Below, one piece after another: positions 53,129 to 56,712 of a stretch of 64,000 nucleotides of DNA. Both the position numbers and the translations under genes were made by a program. Position 1 is the stretch's first letter, and each line of letters opens with the position of its first letter. The notes under the pieces are model-generated. The model ran no database searches and was not told where the DNA came from. It saw nothing but the letters and a program-made list of their open reading frames with translations. Source of the stretch: Arthrobacter sp. Y-9 (GTDB lineage: Bacteria > Actinomycetota > Actinomycetes > Actinomycetales > Micrococcaceae); NCBI RefSeq assembly GCF_029690065.1, contig NZ_CP121463.1, positions 558,001 through 622,000 of the forward strand, written 5' to 3'.

Positions 53129-53824
53129 TCAGCGCGCCAGGTAGCCCTTCACGAAGGTCATGATGGCCTCCACGCTGGCTTCCTGGGAACGACCCGGATG
53201 GAAGCTCTTGCGGTCGAGGCCCACGATGAAGCACGCCCCGAAGATCGCCGCCTCCAGGCCGCTCCGGGAGACGTCCTGGTTCACCGCGTAGCGCTGGCCG
53301 ATCCGGTCCAGGGCTTGGGAGATCACGTCGAGCAGTTCCGAGCGGAGTTCCCGCATCAGGTCACGCCACTCGTTCTCGGCCTTCCAGTTCTCGTTCATCC
53401 ACAGCTGCCCGAAGGACGGGTAGTCGTCCAGGAACGCGATCGCCTCGGACACCACGGACTCCATCGCGGCCACGGGATCCTCGACCGCGGGCACCGCCGC
53501 GAAGCGGGCCAGGAGGATGTCCACGCCGTGCCGGAGCAGCTGCGCGATCAGCTCGGACTTGCTGCCGAAGTTGTAGTACACGGTGCCCTTGGAGACCCCG
53601 GCCTCGGCCGCGATCTCGTCCACCGTCACTTCGGCGGCTCCCCGCTCGCCGATCAGCTGCATGGACGCGTCGAAGATCTTCTGCCGTGAGGCCGACGTCC
53701 GCTGGGGACGACGACGGCGGCCCGCGCCGTCGTCGTCGCCCACGGCAGGCGCCTGGCCGGGTTCGCCGGCGTCGCCGCCCGCCGACGGCAGCCTCGGGTG
53801 CGCGGCCGGCTCGGCGGGTCTCAT
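53129..53824 (-). CDS. TetR-family regulator of the YhgE operon
   Basis: A 231-residue TetR protein whose N-terminal 50 residues are a Pro/Gly/Asp/Arg-rich extension (GDDDGAGRRRRPQRTS). The helix-turn-helix follows: KIFDASMQLIGERGAAEVTVDEIAAEAG and VSKGTVYYNFGSKSELIAQLL. The ligand domain (VVSEAIAFLDDYPSFGQLWM, AAIFGACFIVGLDRKSF) is typical. The ATG at 53824 overlaps the stop of the YhgE/Pip gene by 4 nt, so it is the last gene of the operon. A perfect AACTGAC-TG-GTCAGTT dyad upstream of the first gene is its predicted operator. Confidence 0.9.
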   Translation of the reverse strand: MRPAEPAAHPRLPSAGGDAGEPGQAPAVGDDDGAGRRRRPQRTSASRQKIFDASMQLIGERGAAEVTVDEIAAEAGVSKGTVYYNFGSKSELIAQLLRHGVDILLARFAAVPAVEDPVAAMESVVSEAIAFLDDYPSFGQLWMNENWKAENEWRDLMRELRSELLDVISQALDRIGQRYAVNQDVSRSGLEAAIFGACFIVGLDRKSFHPGRSQEASVEAIMTFVKGYLAR

Positions 53825-55872
53825 ACCGAGATCTCCGGCTTGAAGCTCTTCAGGGTCCAGAGCTTGTGCTTGTGCACGGCGAGCGTGGACATCGCCATGC
53901 CGAGCGCCGCGTAGCCCACGAGGCCCAGCATGATGGGGGCCACCATGGACAGGTCGCCGCCGTAGATCAGGTGGCGCATGCCGGTCACGACGTAGCCGAG
54001 CGGCAGGATGTCGTGGACCACGTGGAACGGCTCCGGGGTGGTCTGCCACGGGAACGTGCCGCCCGAGGAGACCAGCTGGAGCACCAGCAGGATGAGCACC
54101 ACGAATTTGCCCGGTGTGCCCAGCAGTGCGCAGATGCCCTGGATGAGCGCCGTGAACGCCATCGCCGCGAACAGCAGGAAGATGAACGTTAGCGCCGGGT
54201 TGGCCGATTCGAGTTTCAGGCCCAGCGTGACCACGGCCCACAGCAGGGCGGTCTGCACGGCGGACACCACGAAGAAGGGCAGCCAGCCGGCGATGCCGAT
54301 CTTCCAGGACGGCGCATTGGACGCCAGGGCCCGCTGGGTGAGCGGGCGCATGGCCTGCACCAGCATGAAGGCGCCGATCCACAGCGAGAGGCTGAGGAAG
54401 AACGGGGCCAGGCCGGCGCCGTAGGTGGTCGCCTTGGTCTGCGCGAGCTTGTCGACGGCCACCGGATCGGACATCACCTTGGAGACGCTCTCCCGCTGGG
54501 TCGCGTTCGGGTTGGGGATCTGGCCCGAGCCCTCCGCGAGTTTGGTGGCCAGTTCCTTGCCGCCGCTCGCGGCGGTCTTGGCGCCGTCCTGCAGTTTGGC
54601 CGCGCCGGCGTTGAGCTGCGTGGCGCCCGAGTTGAGCTTGGTGGCGCCCTGGTAGGCGCTCTGCTCGCCGGCTGCGAGGGTCTTCGCGCCGTCCGCCAGC
54701 TGGTACGCGCCCGAGTTGGCCTGATTGATGCCGTTGACCAGGGTGGGCGCGGAGTCGGAGAGCTTCTTGGCGCCTGCGGCCACGGCCCCGGCGCCATCGG
54801 AGAGCTTCTGGATGTCAGCGGCGGCGCCGTTGATCTTCGCCTTGGCGTCCTGGACCGGGCTCGATCCCTGGACGGCCTTGAGATCGGCGAGGATCTTGTC
54901 CGCCTGCTCCTGCGTGATGACCTGGTCCTTGACGAGCTTGTTGACCGTGGTCTTCACGTCGGCGTCGGCCTGGGTCTCCACGGTCTGGAGGTCCTTCACG
55001 GCACCCTGAACCTTGGCGTTGAGCTGTGCGTTGCCGGCGGCCACCTGGGCTGCGCCGTCGGCGAGCTGCTTGGTGCTGGACGGCAGGGGCGCGGCGCCCT
55101 GGCTGAGCTGGGACAGCCCGCTGCTGAGCTTGTTCGCGCCGTCGGAGAGCTTGTTCGCACCGGCCACGAGCTGGCCCTGACCGTCCACCAGCTGGCTGGC
55201 GCCGGAGCTGAGGTCCGTGGTGCCCTTGTGCAGATCGGCGGTGCCGGTCTGCAGCTGGGCGAGGCCGTTGGACAGCGTCTTGGCGCCGTCCGCGGCCTTC
55301 ACCATGTTCTGGTGGATGACGCCGAAGCCCGACAGGAGCTGATCGGCCGTCTGCTCGCCGACCTCCTGGGCGACGCTCGCGTGCACGGCGGTGGTGAGCT
55401 TGTCCACGATCGTGCTGAGGAGGTAGTTGTTGGCGTCGTTGGTGGTGACGTTGAGCATGGCCTGGTGCGCCGAGTCGAACGTCGACGGGGACACGAGGTT
55501 CTTGGAGAAGTCCTTCGGGATCTTCAGGGCGAAGGCGTACTTGCCCGTCCGCACGCCCTCATCGGCCTCCTGCGAGGTGGGCACGCGCTGCCAGTCGAAG
55601 AGGTGTGCGTCCACGAGGGAGTCGGCCACCTTGGCGCCGGCCTTCAGTTCCTCGCCCTTGGTGCCGTCGGGCTTGGACGGGGTGGCGCCGGTGTCCTCGA
55701 CCACCAGGGCGGCCTTGATGCCGCTCAGGTTGTTGTAAGGGTCCCAGTTCGCGTAGAGGTAGATGGCCCCGTACAGCAGGGGGACCAGGGACAGGGCGAC
55801 GATGGTGAGCTTGGGCAGCACGCCACTGGTCATGCGCTTGAGCTCGGAGCGGGCCAGGCGTAGAACGGTCAC
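53821..55872 (-). CDS. YhgE/Pip-family membrane protein
   Basis: A 683-residue protein with one N-terminal helix (PKLTIVALSLVPLLYGAIYLYANWDPYNNLSGIKAALV begins the Pip domain, about residues 20-57), a long extracytoplasmic region, and five to six C-terminal helices from about residue 485. The external part has many heptad-like repeats of the form LSDGANKLSSGLSQLSQG and LNSGATQLNAGAAKLQDGA, predicted to form a rod-like coiled coil. Family members include phage infection protein Pip and ESX-linked EsaA. It overlaps its neighbours by 4 nt on both sides. Function as an ABC-2-like exporter or receptor is inferred. Confidence 0.9.
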   Translation of the reverse strand: MTVLRLARSELKRMTSGVLPKLTIVALSLVPLLYGAIYLYANWDPYNNLSGIKAALVVEDTGATPSKPDGTKGEELKAGAKVADSLVDAHLFDWQRVPTSQEADEGVRTGKYAFALKIPKDFSKNLVSPSTFDSAHQAMLNVTTNDANNYLLSTIVDKLTTAVHASVAQEVGEQTADQLLSGFGVIHQNMVKAADGAKTLSNGLAQLQTGTADLHKGTTDLSSGASQLVDGQGQLVAGANKLSDGANKLSSGLSQLSQGAAPLPSSTKQLADGAAQVAAGNAQLNAKVQGAVKDLQTVETQADADVKTTVNKLVKDQVITQEQADKILADLKAVQGSSPVQDAKAKINGAAADIQKLSDGAGAVAAGAKKLSDSAPTLVNGINQANSGAYQLADGAKTLAAGEQSAYQGATKLNSGATQLNAGAAKLQDGAKTAASGGKELATKLAEGSGQIPNPNATQRESVSKVMSDPVAVDKLAQTKATTYGAGLAPFFLSLSLWIGAFMLVQAMRPLTQRALASNAPSWKIGIAGWLPFFVVSAVQTALLWAVVTLGLKLESANPALTFIFLLFAAMAFTALIQGICALLGTPGKFVVLILLVLQLVSSGGTFPWQTTPEPFHVVHDILPLGYVVTGMRHLIYGGDLSMVAPIMLGLVGYAALGMAMSTLAVHKHKLWTLKSFKPEISV

Positions 55873-56651
55873 TTCGCTTCCTCCACGTTCTCATCCGCAC
55901 TGTTCTTTTCCGAACTGTTCTTTTCCGCAGGCGGCGTCTCACCCGAGGCGGCATCGCTGACGTGCGCTGCCTCGGCGGCCACCGCCTCCTCTGCGTCCTC
56001 TTCGGCTCCCGGCGGCAGCTCCGCGTGCGGAACGGAGTTGCCGATCACTGCGCTGGGGCCCTCCCAGCCGTCCGGCAGGGTCGCGACGACCGCGACGACG
56101 GCGAGCGGCCGCCCGGCGTCGTACGCCAGCTGCTCGCAGCGCTCCAGCCAGACGGCGGGGTCGGCGCTGTGCCGGTCGGGGGAGTCCAGCACGAGCAGGT
56201 CCACCGCGGGATCCGCGAGGGCCAGCTGGGTCAGGAGGCTCACACGGCGTTCCGCGGGAAGTTCGTCCACCCAGAGCTTCTCCACGTCCTCGAAGGAGTT
56301 GAGCTTGAGCCAGGGCTTGGCCAGCAGGGCGCCACGGTATCGGCGGGGGATCAGCGCGAGGTCCTCGGTGACCAGATCGCAGACCGAAAGGTGCTGTTCG
56401 GGCTCGTTGATGCCGGGGGCGTCCACCAGGGCGGAGGCTTTTCGGATGGTTTTGAGCCTGGTGCTGCCGTCCCAGGAGAGGTGGCCCGAGGACGGCTTCA
56501 TGCGCCCGGTGAGGGTCAGGGCGAGGGCGGTGCGGTCATCCTGGTTCTCGCCGCGGACCAGGAGCAGTTCGCCGGGGGAGACACGCAGTGAGGTGGCGGG
56601 CAGGAGGTCGGTCCTGCGGCCGTTCACCTGGAGCGCACGGGCGTCGAGCAT
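55869..56651 (-). CDS. degenerate ABC-ATPase-like protein
   Basis: A 260-residue protein with the outline of an ABC nucleotide-binding domain: the Walker A position reads VRGENQDDRTALALTLTGR, lacking the GSGK lysine; the Walker B position reads DLLVLDSPDRHS, lacking the catalytic glutamate; and the signature position reads DELPAERRVSLLTQLAL rather than LSGGQ. The C-terminal 50 residues are Glu/Ala-rich and disordered. It is thus likely unable to hydrolyse ATP and may be a regulatory subunit of the YhgE membrane protein it is translationally coupled to. The ATG at 56651 is the first in frame. Confidence 0.8.
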   Translation of the reverse strand: MLDARALQVNGRRTDLLPATSLRVSPGELLLVRGENQDDRTALALTLTGRMKPSSGHLSWDGSTRLKTIRKASALVDAPGINEPEQHLSVCDLVTEDLALIPRRYRGALLAKPWLKLNSFEDVEKLWVDELPAERRVSLLTQLALADPAVDLLVLDSPDRHSADPAVWLERCEQLAYDAGRPLAVVAVVATLPDGWEGPSAVIGNSVPHAELPPGAEEDAEEAVAAEAAHVSDAASGETPPAEKNSSEKNSADENVEEAK

Positions 56652-56696
56652 GGGGGAGGTGCCTTTCGTGAAGAACGTCTGACACCAGAGTATCTA

Positions 56697-56712
56697 AACT
56701 GACTGGTCAGTT
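56697..56712 (-). promoter_or_regulatory. predicted TetR operator/promoter of the YhgE operon
   Basis: AACTGAC (56697-56703), TG, GTCAGTT (56706-56712) is a perfect 7-bp dyad 46 nt upstream of the ATPase-like gene. On the minus strand it lies between TTGAAC and the -10-like GATACT, so a bound repressor would block RNA polymerase. Confidence 0.8.

Follow-up and report, generated by a model that had tools for sequence, protein, structure and literature searches.

YhgE/Pip membrane proteins, which include YhgE of B. subtilis, Pip of Lactococcus and PIP_EF of Enterococcus, are known as phage receptors. ATP-binding cassette (ABC) proteins are defined by their use of ATP. Degenerate ABC sites are a familiar phenomenon, in most cases forming one half of a pair that keeps one good site (PMC7756269). 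Here we describe an operon of Arthrobacter sp. Y-9, contained in a window of 64,000 nucleotides (nt; the whole stretch of DNA analysed, within which all coordinates are given), that encodes a YhgE/Pip membrane protein, a TetR-family regulator and a relative of the nucleotide-binding domain (NBD) of ABC transporters, hereafter denoted the pseudo-NBD, in which most of the residues that handle ATP are replaced. We consider it reasonably probable that the pseudo-NBD is a non-hydrolysing structural or regulatory subunit docked on YhgE, within a TetR-controlled envelope module.

The YhgE of the window passes both models of its family, TIGR03061 for the N-terminal part (162.9 bits, cut-off 96.15) and TIGR03062 for the C-terminal part (210.3 bits, cut-off 102.2), and, like PIP_EF, has a large external domain that follows the first transmembrane helix (PMC4999554). 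However, no NBD-like partner is mentioned in that description of PIP_EF (a word search for 'ATP' gave 0 matches), whereas here an NBD-like gene adjoins yhgE, as it does in 122/122 genomes with a clear match. Searches of the open-access literature, most subscription papers being outside this coverage, turned up no account of an NBD-like partner of YhgE. The pair resembles the ABC-2/type V exporters (ABCG, ABCH, KpsMT, TarGH, Wzm-Wzt) in the fold class of the permease, in the predicted NBD fold and in the adjacency of the NBD and permease genes, but differs from them in the absence of the Lys, catalytic Glu, LSGGQ, Q and H elements from the NBD and in the very long external helices of YhgE. At the degenerate sites of heterodimeric exporters (ABCG5/G8, TAP, TM287/288), the catalytic residues are likewise replaced and the fold is kept, and in ABCG5/G8 the Walker A Lys is also substituted with Arg (PMC7756269); in those exporters, however, one site is active, whereas no intact NBD was found in the operon of the window, and the Walker elements have been lost along with the signature.

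At the Walker A position, where GxxGxGK[S/T] is expected, the pseudo-NBD reads GENQDDRT; ELPAERR occupies the place of the LSGGQ signature; and the Walker B strand reads LLVLDSP in place of hhhhDE, continuing as LDSPDRH where LDEPTSALD is expected. The Q-loop Gln and the H-loop His are both missing. The initial annotation correctly listed NQDDRT, LDSP and the lack of LSGGQ but spoke of the loss of all catalytic motifs, which is slightly too strong given that two motif residues, Thr41 and the Asp156 of Walker B, are retained. The score of the pseudo-NBD against the Pfam ABC_tran model, 15.7 bits, is below the cut-off of 25, and the pseudo-NBD gene is not among the 97 matches of a genome-wide ABC_tran search at E<=1e-3. 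GxxxxGK[ST] is present in 18/20 ABC loci sampled in the same genome, and the other two did not fit the simple patterns used. Judged by its motifs, the pseudo-NBD very probably does not hydrolyse ATP. A homologue on NZ_CP012477.1 (48% identity) is labelled 'ABC transporter ATP-binding protein', which is probably misleading because the motifs do not support ATP binding.

A complete ABC NBD fold is predicted for the pseudo-NBD, given a confident AlphaFold2 model, built with 59 homologues, and its alignment with LptB over 201 residues (Z 18.9, root-mean-square deviation 3.2). In this model, the predicted local distance difference test (pLDDT) score of 10-residue blocks in the core is mostly 96-98, with 82 at amino acids (aa) 101-110. 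By sequence, the relatives in the PDB are weak NBD matches only (CcmA, E 3e-5 with a profile).

Loss of motifs on this scale would also be seen in a decayed, non-functional gene copy, and there are hints of decay among the matches, a few of which run over stop codons; in one genome (G174, locus L102), the pseudo-NBD gene is apparently frameshifted while YhgE and TetR are retained. For the family at large and the window gene in particular, this explanation is barely credible. We surveyed 245 genomes of the bacterial family to which the window belongs, 130 of which gave a match at E<=1e-5, 122 of them clear; in 122/122 of the latter, the contig with the match also encodes YhgE, less than 4 kb away. 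When the window gene is compared with three close relatives (the named close relatives are all Arthrobacter), the NBD core, aa 1-207, gives a ratio of nonsynonymous to synonymous substitution rates (dN/dS) of 0.02, 0.08 and 0.18, about equal to that of YhgE in the same pairs (0.03, 0.04 and 0.20). Core values this far below 1, along with the synteny, contradict decay of the window gene. The C-terminal tail is loosely kept, with dN/dS of 0.45-0.79. Synteny, purifying selection, the replacements fixed across the clade and the conserved operator described below thus argue against decay and strongly support the earlier proposal of a conserved pseudo-ATPase beside YhgE. A search at this locus for orthologues in which both Walker motifs, A and B, are intact found none.

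The replacements themselves are uniform. Arg stands at the Walker A Lys position in 59/59 aligned family members, and the catalytic Walker B Glu is found in 0/59, its place being taken by Ser, Thr, Gly or Ala. Arg40, Arg50, Arg70, Asp77, Glu96, Trp114, Pro158 and Arg160 are invariant in the same alignment; these residues are unlike those of a working ATPase, from which we infer that the surface of the pseudo-NBD may have been re-purposed. Evolution has retained the pairing with YhgE in many actinobacteria, and therefore the pseudo-NBD probably has a real job. Two genomes of the survey, G238 (L270) and G076 (L271), encode a second NBD-YhgE pair with a less degenerate GxxGSGRT motif in addition to the strongly degenerate one.

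YhgE-linked NBD-like proteins are spread across the phylum. Distant matches with an adjoining YhgE were fetched and aligned along with eight canonical NBDs of the window genome as controls, which, having been chosen for carrying the motifs, serve only to mark the alignment columns. Among these relatives, most of the class has Arg at position 40, a few lineages have Lys, and others have His, Pro or Leu; some less degenerate forms retain GxGK or GxGR, and GPSGSGRT loops occur among them. None of the aligned YhgE-linked members has the Walker B catalytic Glu (they read DD, DN, GD, DS, TLP and similar), and the sole Glu in the Walker B alignment table comes from a canonical ABC gene whose neighbour is a FecCD importer gene. 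In a maximum-likelihood tree of a quick kind, some deep forks of which are not settled, the YhgE-linked proteins are separate from the eight canonical NBDs (SH-aLRT 99) and fall into two groups, one less degenerate (GxGK or GxGR, VVDDxD), the other a degenerate Micrococcales-type clade with a PDRH-like motif (support 100), inside which the family of the window (QxxRT) forms one branch (support 88). The nearest Lys-bearing relatives recovered in this survey of YhgE loci, which the initial annotation had called for, belong to another clade, and in them, too, the Glu of Walker B is missing. The Glu seems to have been lost before the phosphate-binding loop (P-loop).

Tandem yhgE pairs occur in L205, L219 and L220, with an NBD-like gene before each copy in L219 and L220; one of the two NBD-like genes of L220 is apparently frameshifted. 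In two distant members of the phylum (L237 and L238), a very divergent NBD-like protein (VAVCDLDDP) without a canonical Walker A is encoded before yhgE. Gene calls based on GC content at third codon positions were unreliable in the distant loci and were not used.

The same alignments bear on two ways in which the pseudo-NBD could still engage a nucleotide. Non-canonical ATP hydrolysis through Arg40 and Arg50, Arg70, Asp77 and Arg160 would be in keeping with the invariance of these five residues in the 59 aligned members, but sister groups in the same clade have His, Pro or Leu at position 40, and we are aware of no ABC ATPase that functions when the Lys, the catalytic Glu and LSGGQ are all missing, so that we regard this mechanism as highly improbable. 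Less remote, though still unlikely, is that the pseudo-NBD binds ATP, another nucleotide or another ligand without hydrolysing it and acts as a sensor or clamp gating YhgE, in the manner of the degenerate sites of heterodimeric exporters. Such sites can bind ATP tightly and have structural roles (PMC7756269; review), human ABCG5/G8 offers the precedent of a Walker A Lys to Arg change (PMC7756269), Thr41 and Asp156 are kept, and some less degenerate relatives have GPSGSGRT loops. However, in the clade of the window the inner glycines are gone and acidic residues lie at the phosphate position (GENQDDRT), and the signature, which would contact ATP from the other subunit, is lost as well.

Alternatively, YhgE might be powered by a canonical ABC ATPase whose gene lies elsewhere and with which the pseudo-NBD forms a heterodimer. 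ABC heterodimers with one degenerate site are common (PMC7756269), and the 97 ABC_tran matches in the genome offer candidate partners. Against this, no second NBD gene lies beside the operon in the window, and known pairs share the motifs between their halves in such a way that one good site is left; with the Walker and signature elements all lost in one subunit, a heterodimer here would be left without a complete site. We consider this explanation quite improbable. The one adjacent canonical ABC gene found in a relative, upstream at L148/L282, had hinted at such a partner and was rejected, as it adjoins a FecCD importer gene.

The ABC2 membrane domain is detected in YhgE by PF12698 (74.8 bits, cut-off 31.6) and PF01061 (36.1 bits, cut-off 26.9). 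The whole-chain model of YhgE is weak (pLDDT 76, predicted template modelling score, pTM, 0.42), and only the membrane part of the fold match was therefore used; this part resembles ABCH, ABCG25 and KpsM (Foldseek). The modelled helices at residues 146-171, 173-260, 263-315, 321-335 and 338-449 fit a long rod, in line with the rod-like external domain anticipated by the initial annotation. There are good grounds to expect that the pseudo-NBD forms a complex with YhgE. The N-terminal domain of YhgE shows a weak likeness to EsaA/YueB of type VII secretion, and an EsaA identity was rejected, the TIGR03929 score of 36.6 bits being far below the cut-off of 122. YhgE-like proteins with about 29% identity also occur in Listeria phage records (OR848111.1 and others), which possibly contain host DNA.

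The three genes lie in a row in the order pseudo-NBD, yhgE, tetR (Table 1), with an overlap of 4 nt at both junctions; the same overlaps are found in the close relatives L103-L105. An aldehyde dehydrogenase gene is the same-strand upstream neighbour of the operon. Both the gene coordinates and the palindrome match bear out the arrangement originally described, with the overlapping genes placed under a perfect AACTGAC-TG-GTCAGTT operator.

Table 1. Features of the pseudo-NBD-YhgE-TetR operon and their positions in the window
Feature	Position	Strand	Description
NBD-like gene (pseudo-NBD)	55869..56651	-	260 aa; predicted fold aa 1-207, low-confidence variable tail aa 208-260
Walker A position, GENQDDRT, aa 34-41	56529..56552	-	Arg40 replaces Lys, inner Gly lost
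ABC signature position, WVDELPAERRVSLL, aa 127-140	56232..56273	-	no LSGGQ
Walker B/D-loop position, VLDSPDRH, aa 154-161	56169..56192	-	Ser157 for catalytic Glu; PDRH for D-loop
yhgE, YhgE/Pip membrane protein	53821..55872	-	683 aa, GTG start; ABC-2-type permease, large external domain
Predicted helical rod of YhgE, aa 146-449	54526..55437	-	partly Leu-Gly heptad repeats (TIGR03057); modelled helices
C-terminal membrane domain of YhgE, aa 484-667	53872..54423	-	Pfam, model, fold comparison
tetR, TetR-family regulator	53129..53824	-	231 aa
Palindromic operator, AACTGACTGGTCAGTT (operon strand: AACTGACCAGTCAGTT)	56697..56712	.	upstream of operon

With up to two mismatches allowed, the palindrome has one match in the window against 0.09 expected, and its only exact copy in the 3.57-Mb genome is that of the operon. 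It is found within 500 bp upstream of the start of the NBD-like gene in 61/67 loci, 40 of them exact, most often at a distance of 31-33 or 54-62 nt; past the gene start, these loci contain no copy with up to two mismatches. Given the single exact copy in the genome and the absence of downstream copies, a chance origin of the operator was rejected. The operator is present at many of the less degenerate YhgE loci too, so that the association of the operator with the YhgE locus is probably an old one. TetR has the TetR_N helix-turn-helix (PF00440, 61.4 bits, cut-off 24), and a scan for a sigma-70-like promoter overlapping the operator found none. TetR would autoregulate the operon, and the binding of an amphiphilic ligand would release it from AACTGACNNGTCAGTT.

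A clue to the cargo comes from relatives. MMPL proteins are proton-driven lipid exporters, and in several actinobacteria yhgE is directly preceded by a gene for an MMPL transporter (about 985 aa; PF03176, E 1e-76 to 1e-90). The C-terminus of the MMPL protein carries an NBD-like domain in L206, L207, L208 and L214, with an intact GPSGSGKT loop in L214; in L203, the MMPL gene precedes yhgE and the NBD-like part was not resolved. In Saccharopolyspora hirsuta with cholesterol, neighbouring YhgE and MMPL locus tags are up 3.8- and 3.3-fold, respectively (PMC9782250). These MMPL neighbours and fusions, with the cholesterol response, point weakly to a lipid or amphiphile as the most likely cargo and to proton-driven transport as one way in which the module might be energised. 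The initial annotation had suggested a perhaps ATP-independent envelope system of unknown cargo, and these two points of its proposal are likewise inferential.

Several observations weigh against the proposed module. The folds of the pseudo-NBD and YhgE are models. The cholesterol data come from another genus and cover the YhgE and MMPL locus tags. The MMPL fusions belong to relatives; the MMPL genes of the window genome are located elsewhere, none of them beside the operon. Three loci have TetR and no recognisable operator within 500 bp. Finally, some YhgE proteins of the same bacterial family have no NBD-like neighbour: in L272, L273, L274 and L275, no NBD-like relative was found within about 8-9 kb, and the partner is therefore not universal.

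A pseudo-NBD docked on YhgE without hydrolysing ATP could nonetheless work as follows. The TetR-autoregulated operon would yield a two-subunit envelope module, in which YhgE would serve as the permease, of ABC-2 type (type V, ABCG/KpsM-like), and its long helical rod would cross the cell wall. The pseudo-NBD would have retained the ABC NBD fold and lost the phosphate-binding, catalytic and trans-activation residues, and would bind YhgE from the cytoplasmic side in the way that ATPases dock on permeases. The complex, itself not hydrolysing ATP, would act on an envelope molecule of lipid-like or amphiphilic nature, and might be passive, serve as a platform or be energised in trans, for example, by a proton-driven MMPL pump. 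A bolder and rather doubtful extension is that ABC-like systems operating without ATP exist throughout the phylum, with the NBD as an adaptor linking YhgE rods to proton-driven MMPL pumps, fused or in trans depending on the lineage, in a hybrid machine of ABC fold and resistance-nodulation-division (RND) type that moves lipids across the actinobacterial wall.

A widespread lineage thus appears to have maintained the pairing of an NBD fold with a permease under purifying selection while the ATP-handling residues were lost. With the pseudo-NBD/YhgE pair, one could ask directly what an NBD contributes to a permease other than ATP consumption, and the fixed partner and fixed operator may provide a handle on the cellular function of YhgE/Pip proteins.

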